Origin: Bacteroidota bacterium
GTDB lineage: Bacteria > Bacteroidota > Bacteroidia > B-17B0 > Aurantibacillaceae
DNA length: 64,000 bases
Direction: 5' to 3'
Assembly: GCA_030684395.1 (NCBI GenBank)
Contig: JAUXTT010000017.1
Coordinates: 434,001 to 498,000, forward strand
Positions 13,337-58,806 of the stretch are shown here, one piece after another; within the stretch, counting starts at the first letter, position 1, and the number at the start of each line of letters is the position of its first letter. The notes below the pieces were generated by a model, which saw only the letters and a program-made list of their open reading frames with translations, had not been told where the DNA came from and made no database searches. Both the position numbers and the translations under genes were made by a program.

Positions 13337-13463
13337 TTTTTACCACGGAGGCACAGAGATACGGAGGTTCACGGAGGTGATTTAGTTGGTACAAGAATTA
13401 ATATTTAAAGAATTCTTTAGCTAACTCTGTGTTTCTTAGTGCTCTCCGTGTCTCCGTGGTTAA
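13337..13463. repeat. Intergenic palindrome, CACGGAG/CACAGAG type
   Basis: The left arm begins ACCACGGAGGCACAGAGATA and continues with further CGGAG words at 13361-13376; the right arm (13420-13463) ends CTCCGTGTCTCCGTGGTTAA. The outer 20 bp pair well; inner parts pair loosely. The spacer carries GTACAAGAAT, also present in the spacer of the palindrome at 15667-15807. It lies between queG and the helicase gene, which run in the same direction. Confidence 0.8.
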
Positions 13464-14395: not shown

Positions 14396-14549
14396 TTTAA
14401 AACACATAGAAACATAGATTTTTTAAGGTTGCTGTTTTGTTGCAGTAGAAAAGCTTATATAGTTGTCACATAGGAAAGCAAGCTTTCTTTTCCGCGTTAC
14501 TATAAGTTTCTACACTAAAACATTTTCCTATGATCCTTTGTGGTTAAAT
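14396..14549. repeat. Intergenic palindrome, ACATAGAAACATAG type
   Basis: The left arm AAAACACATAGAAACATAG (from 14398) pairs imperfectly with the right arm ending CCTATGATCCTTTGTGGTTA. The spacer includes TTATATAGTTGTCACATAGG, which resembles the spacer of the palindrome at 15100-15254 in inverted orientation. Confidence 0.65.
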
Positions 14550-14552
14550 CTT

Positions 14553-15089
14553 TTACAACGCGAAGGTACGAAATACGTTCCATTGCTTGCCATCGTGTTT
14601 TAGTAATGAAAAATCTTTTAGTGGAAACTCTGCACTGAAAGTTCTGTTTTGAAATTCTTCCCAGGCTTTCAAAAAATACTGTTTTCTAAGATCACGAAAA
14701 GCAACTGTTATATGTGGATGAAAACCACGCATGGATTCATCCTGATTAAATAATTGAAGATTCACTTTGGCATGTCTTACCAGTTTTGTTTGCACATTAG
14801 TCAATACTTCATTTGTCAATACATTTACAAAGATCACACGTTCTCCAAAACGAGAGAAATTGTGAAGCGAAATAGTTGTAGTATCAGAAAAATTAAATTG
14901 AGAAAGAGTTTGTATCAATTGTTCTTCCTTTTCCTCTTTCCACAAAAAAGGCATATGTAATGTTATGTGAGCCGGAGAGCGCAAAGCACCTTTACTATTG
15001 TAGTTTGTGGCGAATTCCTCCTTGATCCGGAACACATCACCGCAGATAGGTTCAGGAGGTACAATGGCTATAAAATATCGTTGTTCCAT
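14553..15089 (-). CDS. 2'-5' RNA ligase (2H phosphoesterase) family protein
   Basis: 178 aa from the ATG at 15089 (MEQRYFIAIVPPEP); the longer frame to 15140 is encoded by a repeat element. Both HxT motifs of the 2H superfamily are present: HITLHMPF and HPHITVAFRDL. Members hydrolyse or form 2'-5' or cyclic phosphates in RNA; the physiological substrate in bacteria is generally not known. It is bracketed by two related intergenic palindromes, both of the ACATAGAAACATAG type. Confidence 0.85.
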   Translation of the reverse strand: MEQRYFIAIVPPEPICGDVFRIKEEFATNYNSKGALRSPAHITLHMPFLWKEEKEEQLIQTLSQFNFSDTTTISLHNFSRFGERVIFVNVLTNEVLTNVQTKLVRHAKVNLQLFNQDESMRGFHPHITVAFRDLRKQYFLKAWEEFQNRTFSAEFPLKDFSLLKHDGKQWNVFRTFAL

Positions 15090-15099
15090 AATTGCGTTA

Positions 15100-15254
15100 T
15101 TTTTTAAACACATAAAGACATAGGTTTGTTTTTGTTGCATCAGTTTGCCTTAGAGCGACGCTTGCACATAGCGATACCGACTATATATAACAACACTCAC
15201 TACTACTATTGGCTCCGCGAACAAGCATTTCTATGTTTCTATGTGGTTAATAGG
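15100..15254. repeat. Intergenic palindrome, ACATAGAAACATAG type
   Basis: The left arm TTTTTAAACACATAAAGACA (continuing TAGG) pairs with the right arm TTTCTATGTTTCTATGTGGT (15231-15250). It lies between the divergent RNA ligase-like gene and the gene at 15310, so it cannot be a simple terminator. Confidence 0.7.
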
Positions 15255-49610: not shown

Positions 49611-49726
49611 GTGTCCCGCAGATTTCGCAGAGACACGTAGATTCATTACTTGTAGTGTTACAAACCAAATCAACTACCATCTGTTCATCAAAAAAATCTG
49701 CGTTAATCTGCGGGATCTGCGGGCAA
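49611..49726. repeat. Intergenic palindrome, CGCAGAT type
   Basis: The left arm starts TGTCCCGCAGATTTCGCAGA and continues GACACGTAGATT; the right arm (49695-49726) reads AATCTGCGTTAATCTGCGGG then ATCTGCGGGCA. They pair along about 31 positions with a few mismatches. The genes on both sides converge. Confidence 0.8.
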
Positions 49727-50440: not shown

Positions 50441-50546
50441 GGTAGTTGCAGCCGACGGTTATTTTCGGGATAACAAAGGTACTCAATAAGTTTGTGTTAA
50501 TTTTTTAAATCTTTCTTGCTTATTATCAGCACATTTACTACCATTA

Positions 50547-50561
50547 GTGTATTTTTTACAC
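50547..50561. promoter_or_regulatory. Putative NrtR operator 1
   Basis: GTGTATTTTTTACAC, a perfect GTGTA-N5-TACAC palindrome, 8 bases upstream of the -33 element of the nrtR promoter. A second copy of the same palindrome overlaps the transcription start. Confidence 0.7.
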
Positions 50562-50569
50562 TTTTTGTG

Positions 50570-50600
50570 TTTGTGCGATTCAATTCTTCTTCTATCTTTG
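50570..50600 (+). promoter_or_regulatory. Promoter of the NAD salvage operon
   Basis: TTTG at 50570-50573 and TATCTTTG at 50593-50600 are 19 bases apart, an exact Bacteroidota -33/-7 promoter. The predicted start (about 50603) falls inside operator 2. Confidence 0.8.
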
Positions 50601-50614
50601 TGTAATAAATACAC
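50600..50614. promoter_or_regulatory. Putative NrtR operator 2
   Basis: GTGTAATAAATACAC, a second perfect GTGTA-N5-TACAC palindrome, placed from the end of the -7 box to 2 bases before the nrtR start codon. Binding here would block initiation directly. Confidence 0.7.
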
Positions 50615-50615
50615 T

Positions 50616-51317
50616 ATGAAAGATAAAAAGAAATACACTTACGAATACCCAAGGCCTGCTTTAGCAACCGACTGTGTGATCTTTGGTTTTGATGGTGGAA
50701 GCCTGAAACTGCTTCTTACAGAAAGAGAAAAGGAACCATTCAAAAACAAATGGGCATTGCCCGGAGGTTTTGTTCACATGGACGAAACAACGGATGAATG
50801 TGCAGAACGAATTTTGAAAGAAAAAGTCGGAGTTAAAAATGTATTTGTAGAACAACTTTACACCTTCAGCGAAACGGATCGTGATCCGCGTGAAAGAGTG
50901 GTTTCGGTTTCTTATTTTGCTCTGGTAAATAAACATCAATACGAACTGGTTGCAGGACGAGATACATTAAAAGCAGAATGGTTCGAATTAGCTGATCTTC
51001 CTAAACTTGCTTTCGATCATAGTAAAATAGTGAAGATGGCTATCCTGAGATTAAAAGGTAAAGTGTCGTACCAACCAATAGGTTTTGAATTGCTGAATGA
51101 AAAATTTACTCTTTCTCAATTACAATCCTTGTATGAAGCAATATTAGAAACAAGTATTGACAAGAGAAACTTTAGAAAAAAGATATTGTCACTCGGAATA
51201 TTAAAAGTATTGGAAGAAAAGGAAAAGAACGTTGCCCGGAAAGCAGCATGGTATTACAGCTTCGACAAAAAAGCATATAAAGAATTAACACAAAAAGGAA
51301 TTTACTTCGAAATATAA
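50616..51317 (+). CDS. nrtR: NrtR-type Nudix transcriptional regulator of NAD metabolism
   Basis: 233 aa from the ATG at 50616; the longer frame from 50547 runs through the promoter and operators and is excluded. The N-terminal Nudix domain (about 15-150) keeps the fold (WALPGGFVHMDETTDECAERIL), but the Nudix box that should read REUxEE is RILKEK, so hydrolysis is probably lost, as in NrtR proteins that bind ADP-ribose. The C-terminal winged helix (LSQLQSLYEAILETSIDKRNFRKKIL) binds DNA. NrtR represses NAD salvage genes; the next genes encode PRPP synthetase and NAMPT, and twin palindromes flank the promoter, so autoregulation is expected. Confidence 0.9.
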   Translation: MKDKKKYTYEYPRPALATDCVIFGFDGGSLKLLLTEREKEPFKNKWALPGGFVHMDETTDECAERILKEKVGVKNVFVEQLYTFSETDRDPRERVVSVSYFALVNKHQYELVAGRDTLKAEWFELADLPKLAFDHSKIVKMAILRLKGKVSYQPIGFELLNEKFTLSQLQSLYEAILETSIDKRNFRKKILSLGILKVLEEKEKNVARKAAWYYSFDKKAYKELTQKGIYFEI

Positions 51318-51327
51318 AAACTGTATT

Positions 51328-52149
51328 ATGACAACAATTAATTTATTTGAATCAAACGAACGTGTTGAACTGAAGAAATTCGCAGGCGGAGAAAACCACG
51401 TTCGTTTTCTGAAAACCTTCTCTTCAGAAGACAAAGTAAGATTGAATACCCGCCTGAATTCAGCTGACGATATTATGACGCTTAGTTTAGCTGTTGATGC
51501 ATTAAGACAGATGAATGTTCAATACATAGAAGTGTTTATTCCTTACATTCCATACGCAAGACAAGACAGGGTGATGGTTCCGGGCGAGCCTTTGTCGATC
51601 AAAATATTCACAACGCTGATCAATAACCTCGAGCTGAATAAAGTAATTGTGTTTGACGCCCACAGTGATGTATCGGTTGCTCTATTAAACAAGTGTCAAA
51701 ATATTCCGAACCACGAAATGGTAAAACATCTCCTAAAAGAATTTGGATTGACAGATTTCACTTTAGTTTCTCCTGACTTAGGTGCTTATAAAAAAGTAGA
51801 TAAACTAGCGCAGAAGTTAGAATACAAAAAAGAGATCGCAACCGGCTTAAAGATCCGTGATCTTGCTACCGGGCAAATAATAAAAAGTGATGTGAATACA
51901 GAAGACCTTCAGGGAAAATCTTGTGTGATAGTAGATGACATCTGTGATGGCGGAAGAACATTTACAGAATTGGCAAAAGCATTAAAACTAAAAAACGCAG
52001 GAGATCTTTACTTAATAGTATCACACGGGATCTTTGTTCATGATGCAATAAACAACCTGAAGGCTGCAGGATTCAAAGGCGTGGCTAGCTCGGATTCGAT
52101 AATGAAAAGAGAAACGAATGAGTTTTTCAAACAATATAATTTGTTTTAG
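51328..52149 (+). CDS. prs: Ribose-phosphate pyrophosphokinase (PRPP synthetase), short form
   Basis: 273 aa, shorter than the housekeeping form (about 310). The PRPP-binding loop is VIVDDICDGGRTF, and the PYIPYARQDR, FDAHSD and VSPDLGAYKK motifs are present. It is the second gene of the NAD operon, 10 bases after nrtR, and supplies PRPP for the NAMPT reaction, so it is probably a dedicated paralogue for NAD salvage rather than the general enzyme. Confidence 0.9.
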   Translation: MTTINLFESNERVELKKFAGGENHVRFLKTFSSEDKVRLNTRLNSADDIMTLSLAVDALRQMNVQYIEVFIPYIPYARQDRVMVPGEPLSIKIFTTLINNLELNKVIVFDAHSDVSVALLNKCQNIPNHEMVKHLLKEFGLTDFTLVSPDLGAYKKVDKLAQKLEYKKEIATGLKIRDLATGQIIKSDVNTEDLQGKSCVIVDDICDGGRTFTELAKALKLKNAGDLYLIVSHGIFVHDAINNLKAAGFKGVASSDSIMKRETNEFFKQYNLF

Positions 52150-52151
52150 TA

Positions 52152-52185
52152 AACCATATAAGGCATAGAGGTTCATATAAGAAAG
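52152..52185. repeat. CATATAAG-type arm upstream of the GxxExxY gene
   Basis: AACCATATAAGGCATAGAGG followed by TTCATATAAGAAAG. It is a direct repeat of the left arm of 52617-52732 and the inverted mate of that element's right arm. It starts 2 bases after the prs stop codon and ends 4 bases before the GxxExxY start. Confidence 0.8.
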
Positions 52186-52189
52186 TGTA

Positions 52190-52606
52190 ATGAAAACAAC
52201 CAAAGAATATTTAAAAGATCTGGTTTATAAAGTGAATGGAGCAGCAATTGAAGTTCACAAGTCTCTGGGGCCTGGGTTACTGGAAAGTGTTTACCACAAA
52301 TGCTTAAATTATGAACTGTCTCAAAATGGAATTTATTTTCAATCTGAGTTAAAGATATGTGTTAACTATAAAGAAGTTGATTTAGATACGAACTTACGGT
52401 GTGACTTCTTAATAGACGATTGTTTGGTTGTAGAATTAAAAGCCATCGAAACAATATTGCCGGTTCATGAAGCACAAATTCTAACTTATATGAAACTGCT
52501 AAAAGCTCCAATGGGATTAATGATAAACTTTAACTGCACCCATATTTATAAAGAAGGTCAAAAAACGTATGTCAATGAAATGTATAGAAACCTAAGTGAA
52601 ACGTAA
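52190..52606 (+). CDS. GxxExxY protein (PD-(D/E)XK-like)
   Basis: 138 aa. The name motif is G29-L-L-E32-S-V-Y35. Strands and helices with D72 (CDFLIDD), E82-L-K84 (VVELKA) and Q96 in EAQILTYM match the PD-(D/E)XK nuclease superfamily arrangement D...ExK...QxxxY. The family is known for many copies per genome in some lineages and has no established function. It is flanked on both sides by CATATAAG-type repeats and interrupts an NAD salvage operon between prs and nadV, although it keeps the direction of transcription, so it looks like an inserted cassette. Confidence 0.9.
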   Translation: MKTTKEYLKDLVYKVNGAAIEVHKSLGPGLLESVYHKCLNYELSQNGIYFQSELKICVNYKEVDLDTNLRCDFLIDDCLVVELKAIETILPVHEAQILTYMKLLKAPMGLMINFNCTHIYKEGQKTYVNEMYRNLSET

Positions 52607-52616
52607 ACCTCCAATT

Positions 52617-52732
52617 CAAAAACCATATAAGGCATGTAAGAGCATATAAGAATAACCAAAATCAAAAAGTAACTAATTAATATATACAAACAATACCTTA
52701 TATGGCCTTAAATGCCTTATATGGTTCAAAAA
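52617..52732. repeat. Intergenic palindrome, CATATAAG type
   Basis: The left arm has AACCATATAAGGCATGTAAG then AGCATATAAGAAT; the right arm (52694-52732) has CCTTATATGGCCTTAAATGC then CTTATATGGTT. The spacer is AT-rich. With the arm at 52152 it gives the GxxExxY unit terminal inverted repeats. Confidence 0.85.
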
Positions 52733-52742
52733 TCACCAAATT

Positions 52743-54251
52743 ATGAAAATTAACCCCTTAATGTTGATCGACTTTTATAAAGCAGATCACCGCAGACAGT
52801 ATCCAGAAGGAACTGAAATGGTTTACTCCAACTTCACTCCTCGTAAATTCCGCCAGGAAGGACAGGCAGAGCTTGTATTCTTTGGCTTGCAATATCTAGT
52901 AAAAGAATATTTGATCAAACAATGGAACGAAGGCTTTTTTAATGTTCCTAAAGAAAAAGTAATTGCCGATTACAAACGCAGAATGGATAATGCCTTGGGT
53001 AAAGACAGTATTCCTGTTGAGCATATTGCAGAACTACATGATCTTGGATATTTACCATTGATCGTAAAAGGTTTACCTGAAGGAAGCATCGTAACGCCAA
53101 GAGTTCCGGTAGTAACTGTTTATAATACACAGCCTAAGTTTTTCTGGTTAACGAATTACTTAGAATCTTTGATGTCAGCTATTTTGTGGAAGCCAAGTAC
53201 CAGCGCAACTACTGCCTACTTGTACAGGAAAACATTTGATGAATACGCAAGAACTACTGTAAGCGATAATAATATTGATTTTGTTTACTGGCAGGGACAT
53301 GATTTCAGTTTCCGTGGTATGAGCGGAATTGAAGATGCATGTATGAGCGCAGCCGGACATTTATTATCTTTTCATGGAACAGATACCGTTCCGGCTCTTG
53401 ACTTCCACGAACTATACTACAATGCAAATTCAGATAAAGAAATGATCGGTGGAAGTGTTCCGGCAACTGAGCACTCGGTAATGTGTATGGGAACAAAAGA
53501 TAATGAGATCGCAACTTTTGAAAGACTGATCGAAGAATTATATCCGAATGGAATTGTATCTATTGTTTCTGATACCTGGGATTTCTGGAAAGTGATCACT
53601 GAATTTTTACCACAACTAAAAACAAAGATCTTAGCCCGTAATGGTAAAGTAGTGATTCGTCCTGACAGCGGAGATCCCGTAAAAATAATTATTGGTGATA
53701 AAGACGCTGCACCCGGAAGCCCTGAATTTAAAGGTGCAATTGAGTGTATGTGGGAAACCTTTGGCGGAACAATAACCGATAAAGGATATAAATTACTGGA
53801 TTCGCACATTGGTTTGATCTACGGAGACAGCATCACATTGGTTCGTCAAAAAGCAATCTTAGAAGGATTAAAAGAAAAGGGTTTTGCTTCGTTCAATGTA
53901 GTATTGGGAATTGGTTCTTACACTTATGAATACGTAACACGTGATACTTATGGTTTCGCAATGAAAGCAACTTATGGTGAAGTGAACGGAGAAGCAAGAA
54001 ACATTTTCAAAGATCCTAAAACAGATGACGGGACAAAACGTTCTGCCAAAGGTTTGATGCAGGTTACGGAGAAAGACGGAGTATTAGTTATGAAAGACCA
54101 ATGTACCTGGGAAGAAGAAAAAATCGGATTGCTACAAACTGTTTTTGAGAACGGAAAAATTGTGAAAGAGCAATCGTTGAGTGAGATCCGTGCGCAAATA
54201 AACAAACATCTGATGAAACATGTGGAGAGTGTTTTAGCTGCTGTGAAATAG
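52743..54251 (+). CDS. nadV: Nicotinamide phosphoribosyltransferase
   Basis: 502 aa, typical of NAMPT/NadV. It converts nicotinamide and PRPP to NMN. Recognised segments are IDFYKADHRRQYPEGTEMVYSNFTPR, HDFSFRGMSGIEDACMSAAGHL, GGSVPATEHSVMC, SIVSDTWDFWKVI, IRPDSGDP and GIGSYTYEYVTRDTYGFAMKAT. The active-site His sits in the GSVPATEHSV region. It is the downstream gene of the NrtR operon, separated from prs by the GxxExxY unit. Confidence 0.95.
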   Translation: MKINPLMLIDFYKADHRRQYPEGTEMVYSNFTPRKFRQEGQAELVFFGLQYLVKEYLIKQWNEGFFNVPKEKVIADYKRRMDNALGKDSIPVEHIAELHDLGYLPLIVKGLPEGSIVTPRVPVVTVYNTQPKFFWLTNYLESLMSAILWKPSTSATTAYLYRKTFDEYARTTVSDNNIDFVYWQGHDFSFRGMSGIEDACMSAAGHLLSFHGTDTVPALDFHELYYNANSDKEMIGGSVPATEHSVMCMGTKDNEIATFERLIEELYPNGIVSIVSDTWDFWKVITEFLPQLKTKILARNGKVVIRPDSGDPVKIIIGDKDAAPGSPEFKGAIECMWETFGGTITDKGYKLLDSHIGLIYGDSITLVRQKAILEGLKEKGFASFNVVLGIGSYTYEYVTRDTYGFAMKATYGEVNGEARNIFKDPKTDDGTKRSAKGLMQVTEKDGVLVMKDQCTWEEEKIGLLQTVFENGKIVKEQSLSEIRAQINKHLMKHVESVLAAVK

Positions 54252-54338
54252 AACACGGATGACGCGGATTGTTATGATTTCAACTGATGCAAAATAAAAA
54301 TCATAATTAATCTGCTCAATCCGCGTCATCAGCGTGCC
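54250..54338. repeat. Intergenic palindrome, CACGGATGACGCGGAT type
   Basis: GAACACGGATGACGCGGATT (left, 54251) pairs with CAATCCGCGTCATCAGCGTG (right, 54317-54336), and inner TTATGATTT pairs with AATCATAA. It lies inside the NAD operon, between nadV and the SPFH gene, starting at the nadV stop codon. Confidence 0.75.
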
Positions 54339-54371
54339 ATTATCGGAATTAACAATTAAAAACTAAAAGCC

Positions 54372-55376
54372 ATGTTCGGAATAAGCTATATCAAATTCGA
54401 TTCGATGACTTATGTCATCCACTTTAAAAACGGCGCTATTAATAAAGAAGGAAGAGGGCTCTCTTTCTTTTACTTCGCCCCTAGTAGCTCTATTGCTGCC
54501 ATTCCAATGGGAAGTAATGACTTGCCTTTCATTTTTAATGAAACTACCAACGACTATCAGAGCATCACCATCCAGGGACAGATCGCTTACAAAGTGGCTA
54601 ACCCTAAACAGCTGGCAGAATCATTGGATTTTACCATCAACGAAAAAGGTGCTTATAAAAAGAATGACATCGAAAAGTTGAATCAGCGGATCATAAACGA
54701 AACACAAACTTCTACTTCATCTTTCATTCACAAATTAAACCTAAAAGAATCCATTCGTTCTGCAAAGACAATTGAAGAAAAAATTACCGAAGGATTAAAA
54801 GCGTCTGCTGCTATTTCAATTTTAGGAATTGAGATCGTGAGCATTAGTGTCTTGGCAATAAAAGCAACTCCGGAAATGGCTCGCGCACTGGAAACAGAAA
54901 CACGTGAGAAACTACAACAGGAAGCGGATCATGCTATTTACGAACGTAGGAACTTTGCAGTAGAGCAGGAACGTATTATTAAAGAAACCGAATTAAACAC
55001 AGAGATCGCTGTTGAGGAAAAAAGAAAACAAATAGATGAGAAAAAAATGCAAACCGATATTCAGAAATCGGATAACGAAAGAAAATTACGCGAAATGAAA
55101 ATTGCTGCTGATATTTCTGTAGAAACACAACGTAAATCGTTGATAGAACAGAAAACAAATAACGACAGAAAAGAAGCTGAAACAAAAGGTTTCATTTTAG
55201 AAACAACTTTAAAACCATACAAAGACATGGATTGGAAAACACTTTCTGCTCTTAGTGGTTCTGGAGATGCCAAAACAAACATTGCACTTGCTTTCCGTGA
55301 ACTAGCGGAGAATGCAGGTAAGATCAATACTTTAAATATCAGCCCTGATCTGCTGGAAAACCTCCTTTCAAAATAA
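54372..55376 (+). CDS. SPFH/band 7 domain protein without a membrane anchor
   Basis: 334 aa. A band 7 fold (about 30-180: QSITIQGQIAYKVANPKQLAES, LGIEIVSISVLAIKATPEMARAL) is followed by a long charged coiled coil (190-285) and a short C-terminal domain. The hydrophobic N-terminal segment typical of flotillin or prohibitin relatives is missing, so it is probably soluble or peripheral. SPFH proteins scaffold oligomers. The gene lies between nadV and a NAD-kinase-like gene, 5 bases from the latter; the pairing suggests a complex, but that is inference. Confidence 0.85.
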   Translation: MFGISYIKFDSMTYVIHFKNGAINKEGRGLSFFYFAPSSSIAAIPMGSNDLPFIFNETTNDYQSITIQGQIAYKVANPKQLAESLDFTINEKGAYKKNDIEKLNQRIINETQTSTSSFIHKLNLKESIRSAKTIEEKITEGLKASAAISILGIEIVSISVLAIKATPEMARALETETREKLQQEADHAIYERRNFAVEQERIIKETELNTEIAVEEKRKQIDEKKMQTDIQKSDNERKLREMKIAADISVETQRKSLIEQKTNNDRKEAETKGFILETTLKPYKDMDWKTLSALSGSGDAKTNIALAFRELAENAGKINTLNISPDLLENLLSK

Positions 55377-58715: not shown

Positions 58716-58806
58716 TTAACCACAAAGGGCGCAAAGGTTTTTCACAAAGAGCGCAAAGTTTAATTTTAATGACCTTTGTGGCTTCTTTGTGCCCTTTGTG
58801 GTTAAA
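58716..58806. repeat. Intergenic palindrome, CACAAAG type
   Basis: The left arm has TTAACCACAAAGGGCGCAAA then TTTTTCACAAAGAGCGCAAAG; the right arm (58767-58806) has CCTTTGTGGCTTCTTTGTGC then CCTTTGTGGTTAA. The spacer is 4-5 bases. It lies between pbpC and the fusion gene. Confidence 0.85.

Follow-up and report, generated by a model that had tools for sequence, protein, structure and literature searches.

The window, a stretch of 64,000 nucleotides from a Bacteroidota bacterium, carries a small gene of the GxxExxY family that is closely bracketed by short repeats and lies between a prs-like and a nadV-like gene. This locus raises the question of whether the gene and its repeats form a mobile unit, and how such a unit would relate to the palindromes elsewhere in the same genome. 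The preliminary description of the locus had placed the gene between inverted arms, with a complete palindrome downstream, and this layout was confirmed in the sequence, with arms of the CATATAAG type (Table 1). The right arm pairs both with the left arm and with the second forward arm (the latter over 30 nt, 90% complementary), and the layout therefore reads F - gene - F' - R. A longer outer pair, 52152-52188 with 52690-52726, is 78% complementary. All four occurrences of the word CCATATAAG in the window are at the element, and none of 100 shuffles reached this number. The arrangement would be the canonical F - gene - R form plus one forward arm, which was probably added by fusion of a palindrome on the 3' side. 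A search of positions 50500-54500 against Rfam gave no known RNA family, with no match up to an E-value of 1.

Table 1 Features of the window discussed in the text.
Feature	Position	Strand	Description
NrtR-like Nudix regulator	50616..51317	+	NF050029, below its cut-off
prs-like gene, ribose-phosphate diphosphokinase family, upstream	51328..52149	+	TIGR01251
Left (outer) arm	52152..52181	+	AACCATATAAGGCATAGAGGTTCATATAAG; three units, 9-10 nt spacing
GxxExxY / PDDEXK_3 gene	52190..52606	+	138 aa; TIGR04256, PF13366
Second forward arm	52621..52650	+	AACCATATAAGGCATGTAAGAGCATATAAG; the simpler element of genome G003 is without such an arm
Right (outer) arm	52697..52726	-	reverse complement AACCATATAAGGCATTTAAGGCCATATAAG
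Complete gene-less palindrome, same family as element	52621..52726	.	two arms, 46-nt loop
nadV-like gene, downstream	52743..54251	+	NF006629, above its cut-off
Gene-less hairpin	54247..54341	.	ACGCGGAT-type arms
Gene-less hairpin	58716..58805	.	CACAAAG-type arms, as at GxxExxY locus L002
Iterated arms, inverted order	49617..49721	.	CGCAGAT-type
Iterated arms	13425-13458		not CATATAAG-type

To score arms, the upstream flank of a gene was locally aligned with the reverse complement of its downstream flank, and scores of at least 30 were called strong. Of 318 ORFs with a length of 100 aa or more in 464 kb of the source genome, the GxxExxY gene of the window had the best flank-to-flank inverted repeat (score 35), and six ORFs, this gene among them, reached 30. 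The second best of the 318 (score 33) is also located in the window: a minus-strand ORF at 14400-15248 that is 2H phosphoesterase-like by eye and has CACATAG-type arms.

All six GxxExxY genes of the source genome are bracketed by arms, which belong to five types (CACAGAG at two genes; CACAAAG, CACGGAG/CACAAAG, CATATAAG and TACGAATA/ACTAATT at one gene each). Their scores range from 28 to 39, with at least 30 in four of the six, and two of the six genes are broken by a stop codon or frameshift. A reading in which only the gene of the window has palindromic flanks proved wrong; it had arisen because a search restricted to CATATAAG found nothing at the other five genes, which carry other arm types. 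For a broader view, 173 GxxExxY loci were picked by the protein alone, 93 from the source and related genomes and 80, the best of 581, from named genomes of many phyla. PF13366 matched 134 times in 43 of the 60 genomes, and the 93 loci come from 38 genomes; of the 41 matches that have no separate locus, 35 are in genomes outside the family, and some are second pieces of a gene that had been included. Inverted repeats scoring at least 30 connect the flanks of 110 of the 173 loci, and 54 loci reach 40. Shifted control intervals reached 30 in 3 of 553 cases (1/408 and 2/145) and never 40. Thus, most of the GxxExxY genes examined have the flanking arms that the preliminary description had expected of them, both in the source and related genomes (63/93) and among the best 80 of 581 named loci (47/80). 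The 63 loci that score below 30 comprise some that are visibly degenerate and others that are not. When flanks of different loci were paired, 15 of 278 pairings reached 30; this exceeds the background because the arm types have one general form in common.

The genome with the most PF13366 matches among the 60 (G043, 19 matches) scored at least 30 at 16 of the 17 loci fetched. One of its loci, L215, scored 35 in this count and 20 in the set of 173, since its two matched pieces, the result of a frameshift, ended differently; it was kept at 20. By record label, the armed named loci are distributed over at least 11 phyla, namely Bacteroidota, Acidobacteriota, Cyanobacteriota, Planctomycetota, Verrucomicrobiota, Electryoneota, Thermodesulfobacteriota, Pseudomonadota, Chloroflexota, Bacillota and Ignavibacteriota, many of the records being metagenome bins.

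Each arm repeats a motif of 7-8 bases roughly three times, at a spacing of about 8-10 bases. The autocorrelation computed from 214 arms has elevated values at lags 8-10 and 19, as well as at lag 2. A spacing of this size roughly equals one helical turn. The motif frequently takes the form C-A/G-C/T-N-N-A-G/T, the top motifs of this form being CACAGAG, CGCAAAG, CGCAGAT, CACATAG, CGCAGAG and CACGGAG. The median length from arm to arm is 522 bases, mostly occupied by the gene. Moreover, arm and protein covary, as had been predicted for a nuclease that acts on these repeats. Protein identity correlated with the 6-mer similarity of the arms in a Mantel test over 109 elements (r = 0.367), over pairs from different genomes (r = 0.362) and over different-genome pairs with proteins below 60% identity (r = 0.257), each with 0/2000 permutations as high; no permutation among 2000 rose above 0.1. 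The test and the tree include 109 of the 110 elements scoring at least 30, the one omitted having a protein of less than 100 aa. On the maximum-likelihood tree, the arm labels required 35 changes, compared with a mean of 63.9 for shuffled labels (0/200 shuffles as low); these labels were made by script, the label 'TACGAA' including CACGAAG-type arms and 11 elements being labelled 'other'. Arms differ among the source genome's own GxxExxY genes, and those of a locus in a Bacteroidales bin (L098), at 61% protein identity, are very like the arms of the window element.

We compared 114 locus pairs that had strong arms in both loci and a blastn match across the gene. In 107 of these, no match extended further than 60 bases outside the arms, and the other seven have common neighbours farther out. 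In ten of the 107 pairs, the match comes to within 25 bases of both arm ends in each of the two loci. Among these ten are copies within G043, which are 90% (L204/L208), 85% (L202/L205) and 70% (L211/L213) identical over 483-513 bases, the L202/L205 match continuing for about 45 bases outside the called left arm. The cross-genome pairs among the ten include L067/L167, L121/L147, L147/L157 and L119/L273.

Orthologous sites could be read in the genus g8, which is represented by eight genomes. At one site, that of an M16 peptidase gene, two genomes are filled (G009, G015) and one is empty (G026), with a stop codon directly abutting the next ATG; G021 and G060 have one arm, as does G030, in degenerate form and with a further insert (G061, whose contig ends, and G034, with no junction, are missing here). 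At a second site, G009 is filled, and G015, G030 and G034 are empty, the flanks in G015 being 95 and 93% identical. G026 has only forward-type arm units at this site (G060 and G061 are missing). The gene-less palindrome of G021 at the second site is of an arm type other than that of the G009 element and may therefore be an independent insertion. A third site carries the element in G026, a lone arm of another type in G021 and neither of the two in G030. Empty sites that keep the repeats in all relatives, which the preliminary description had named as counter-evidence, were thus not observed, since one genome is empty at the first site and three are at the second. The sites read are intergenic and vary. 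A target-site duplication was not found in 76 well-bounded elements (mean longest shared direct word 4.18 versus 4.06 in shuffled flanks; 28/200 shuffles as high), and the exact ends of the element rest on the homology limits for this reason. Taken together, the units show two hallmarks of mobile elements: orthologous sites may hold or lack them, and their copies are scattered and sharply bounded. The comparison shows that the arm-gene-arm unit, which is found several times per genome and the homology of which ends at its arms or within them, has been mobile on an evolutionary time scale and that its ends have diversified together with the protein. The unit at 52152-52726 is therefore likely to represent a single copy of a widespread mobile element with one gene between inverted arms.

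The gene holds a fixed position in Chryseobacterium, in Pedobacter and in Flavobacterium/Gelidibacter, and is under purifying selection where this can be measured, with silent sites near saturation. At three Pedobacter loci (L107, L109, L113), an upstream arm was not seen in 260 bases, an absence that a simple transposon would not be expected to tolerate. Downstream of these three genes, inspection by eye showed at least one arm or a complete palindrome. In two other loci (L152, 2781-3433; L163, 2760-3409), the GxxExxY gene with CACAGAG-type units lies inside a more extended region of 87% identity that has GCTACTCTTT-like ends, which gives the impression of one small element nested within another.

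The preliminary description had also viewed the element as splitting prs from nadV. Genes resembling both do flank it, but the insertion beside the NAD genes is not peculiar to the source genome. In genome G003, a simple F - gene - R element of CATATAAG type stands immediately before nadV, and in G001 a CATATAAG element lies one gene farther upstream of nadV than in G003. The GxxExxY proteins of these two genomes and of the source genome form one clade (tree support 98/79). Thus, the insertion is common to the nadV neighbourhood and is not fresh in the source genome. The association of element and nadV would accordingly be shared in some way, either through descent or through joint transfer. 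In G008, a CATATAAG-type element and nadV are on separate contigs. Gene orders differ among the three elements that lie within one gene upstream of nadV (L218 in G001, L219 in G003 and 52152-52726 in the window).

Because it recurs beside nadV in G001 and G003, GxxExxY was also considered as a conserved member of the NAD operon. This reading was retained as no more than a minor remark, since all three nadV-adjacent genes carry CATATAAG arms and belong to one clade, and full-length nadV is found with no GxxExxY gene nearby in G006, G008 and G020. The nadV neighbours in relatives (L056-L060) include ORFs that, named by eye, are macro-domain-, NADAR-, deoxyribosyltransferase- and metallophosphatase-like. 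Phages carry NAD reconstitution genes, and the nadV neighbourhood of the relatives may be an ADP-ribose/NAD operon resembling these.

The protein has the motif G29xxE32xxY35 and matches TIGR04256 (E 4.7e-40; 136.6 bits, cut-off 35) and PF13366 (E 1.5e-38; 132.2 bits, cut-off 22). The arrangement of PD-(D/E)XK nucleases that had been read from its sequence is borne out by D72, E82, K84, Q96 and Y100; in an alignment of 28 sequences, E82 is nearly invariant and the other four are invariant. In a Foldseek search with the predicted structure (pLDDT 96.8), the nearest solved fold was SSO0001, a Cas4 protein (4ic1; probability 1.00, TM 0.55, E 5e-3). A Holliday junction resolvase came next, and an alkaline exonuclease ranked lower. 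No Foldseek match to the model had an E-value of 0.001 or better, and 3r3p, I-Bth0305I, was a weak match at rank 24. Cas4 profiles matched weakly (PF01930 at 4.6e-4, below its cut-off; PADLOC Cas4 at 3.5e-5), and the single hit of a PDB sequence search was weak (E 0.045), to a protein that looks unrelated. Judging from the conserved residues and the predicted fold, the gene in all likelihood encodes a small PD-(D/E)XK nuclease of the Cas4/RecB type.

Among 21 gene pairs compared for dN/dS, silent sites were saturated in 12. Seven of the nine unsaturated pairs, i.e., orthologues of Chryseobacterium, Pedobacter and Flavobacterium and two G043 copy pairs, gave values of 0.03-0.11. The remaining two were L071/L215 at 0.36, a value that means little as the L215 partner is frameshifted, and L080/L081 at 0.54, a very close pair with few changes. 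Two GxxExxY loci were found in viral contigs by a scan restricted to one peptide pattern, phage records gave no match, and 8 of 72,556 plasmid records contain the family; on the viral-contig and phage-record counts, a phage origin of GxxExxY was rejected.

The preliminary description had further pointed to nine other palindromes in the window. At the thresholds used, which retain strong ones only, two other strong hairpins and two sites with iterated arms were found, none of them of the CATATAAG type (Table 1); most of these look like the arm types of other GxxExxY genes. In the source genome, CCATATAAGG occurs 52 times, compared to 14 times for the reversed control pattern, and forms 14 forward-then-reverse pairs less than 100 bp apart. 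By eye, its places are mostly hairpins of the same two arms, with a minority of lone words that look like chance. Copy numbers are higher in the five genomes with CATATAAG on both GxxExxY flanks than in the remaining 55 (p 0.001, 60 genomes), the 55 including genomes whose GxxExxY flanks were only partly fetched. Enrichment of CCATATAAGG is uneven, being not significant in G001 (30 versus 22), 6 versus 4 in G028, which has the arms, and 33 versus 19 in G037, where the exact motif is on one GxxExxY flank only. Eight of the 16 strong hairpins in 464 kb of the source genome were assigned by script to GxxExxY arm types, and two more were matched by eye (CACTAAG, CACATAG). The repeat patterns tried were not found at the four Y1_Tnp loci of this genome. 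Three loci (L027, L044, L046) have hybrid palindromes, in which by eye a CATATAAG-type arm is combined with a CACAGAG or CACAAAG arm.

Our data suggest that GxxExxY genes and the scattered short palindromes of the same genomes belong to one unrecognised family of mobile DNA. We assign a probability of roughly 0.7 to the reading that this is a mobile element with the nuclease as its sole gene and the palindromes as its gene-less derivatives. In such an element, the GxxExxY protein would recognise the iterated motif of its own arms and cut the DNA there, perhaps in the form of an extruded hairpin. Repair of the break would then copy the unit, or a gene-less version of it, into new intergenic sites, and scattered palindromes of the same arm type would represent non-autonomous derivatives. 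For the more far-reaching proposal we consider the odds to be even: GxxExxY elements would constitute a class whose sole protein, a Cas4/RecB-like nuclease, reads a motif spaced by about a helical turn in its own inverted ends; ends and enzyme would have diversified together into many specificities, and most iterated palindromes of these genomes would be gene-less offspring of the class.

The large excess of gene-less CATATAAG palindromes over the one filled CATATAAG element in the source genome could also be explained if the palindromes were older and had moved by other means, with GxxExxY as a homing passenger that cuts palindromes of its own type and is copied by repair into their loop. That arm type tracks the protein agrees with this, and the F - gene - F' - R form of the window could have arisen when a gene was copied next to a palindrome. 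Furthermore, freestanding PD-(D/E)XK homing enzymes exist, I-Bth0305I being the weak match mentioned above. However, a matching palindrome in the relatives is not what the two best orthologous sites show; these are empty, have a single arm or hold a palindrome of another type. Moreover, no other mover was found when Y1 transposases were searched, the four Y1 loci being without the repeat patterns tried. We thus regard homing into older palindromes as unlikely. Ordinary REP or MITE palindromes, spread by a Y1 or DDE transposase with GxxExxY as cargo or chance neighbour, are a far less probable source. REP/RAYT systems are alike in outline and also have abundant intergenic palindromes, but strong arms at 110 of 173 loci against 3 of 553 shifted intervals, the covariation of arm and protein, and again the Y1 genes of the source genome speak against such an origin.

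A different possibility is that the nuclease has been domesticated for a host role, such as repair, cruciform or hairpin processing, or regulation, with the arms as its binding sites and the palindromes as a side effect. Within each of three groups, the gene keeps its position across several species, dN/dS is 0.03-0.09 in the five orthologue pairs that are neither saturated nor near-identical, and the family is rare in viral contigs, phage records and plasmid records, by the counts given above. The three Pedobacter orthologues, moreover, persist with no upstream arm in view; these loci and the fixed places in three groups are the reason why this explanation stays alive. Against it stand the presence and absence of the unit at orthologous sites, within-genome copies with homology confined to the element, genes broken by stop codons or frameshifts, and as many as 19 matches in one genome. 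Overall, we judge domestication to be slightly less probable than homing, and a mobile element with its own nuclease remains our preferred reading.

This reading provides a testable function for a protein family that is named solely after a motif, and a likely origin for intergenic palindromic repeats in many phyla. If movement of the unit needs no protein other than the nuclease, this would represent a kind of transposition that does without DDE, Y1, serine or tyrosine enzymes. The enzymes and arm motifs, which covary, form a natural data set on how a small nuclease fold comes to recognise new DNA sequences, and, should the class of co-diversified ends and enzymes be real, the residues that set the motif could be read from natural pairs of enzyme and arm.

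GxxExxY proteins are mentioned in passing in passages of PMC8934634 and PMC12085832. A search of the open-licence literature found no link between the family and inverted arms, palindromes or mobility. The protein of the window is a member of TIGR04256 and PF13366, the names of which cite only the motif and the nuclease superfamily. The recombination-promoting nucleases (Rpn) are a family separate from GxxExxY, and we know of no arms around their genes.

Among known systems, REP/RAYT comprises many-copy intergenic palindromes and a partner gene flanked by the same repeats, with no target duplication. The GxxExxY elements are like this system (TnpA-REP, Y1) in their many intergenic palindromes, in the gene flanked by repeats and in that no target duplication was found. 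Unlike in REP/RAYT, the enzyme is a PD-(D/E)XK protein instead of a Y1 (HUH) transposase, the arms are made of iterated 7-8-mers, a long hairpin arises only from two arms together, and several arm types occur per genome; on the enzyme and on the four Y1_Tnp loci, REP/RAYT itself was rejected as an identity for the element. With MITEs and their autonomous DDE transposons, the elements have in common terminal inverted repeats (at least 30 at 110/173 loci) and gene-less copies with the same ends, whereas the ORF between the arms is PDDEXK_3 and not a DDE transposase, a target-site duplication was not found (76 elements), the ends are iterated and some sites have single arms. Homing endonuclease genes of the PD-(D/E)XK fold are small and freestanding. 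GxxExxY genes resemble them as small freestanding nuclease genes with a presumed spread by cutting and repair, but carry their own inverted arms and are intergenic at the sites read, not within a conserved gene. Cas4 is the nearest predicted fold and matches weakly by profile, and differs in that GxxExxY is flanked by inverted arms. Thus, with the defining features of REP/RAYT and of DDE transposons both lacking, the GxxExxY element appears to be of its own kind in enzyme and ends, while working like a mobile system of palindrome plus nuclease.
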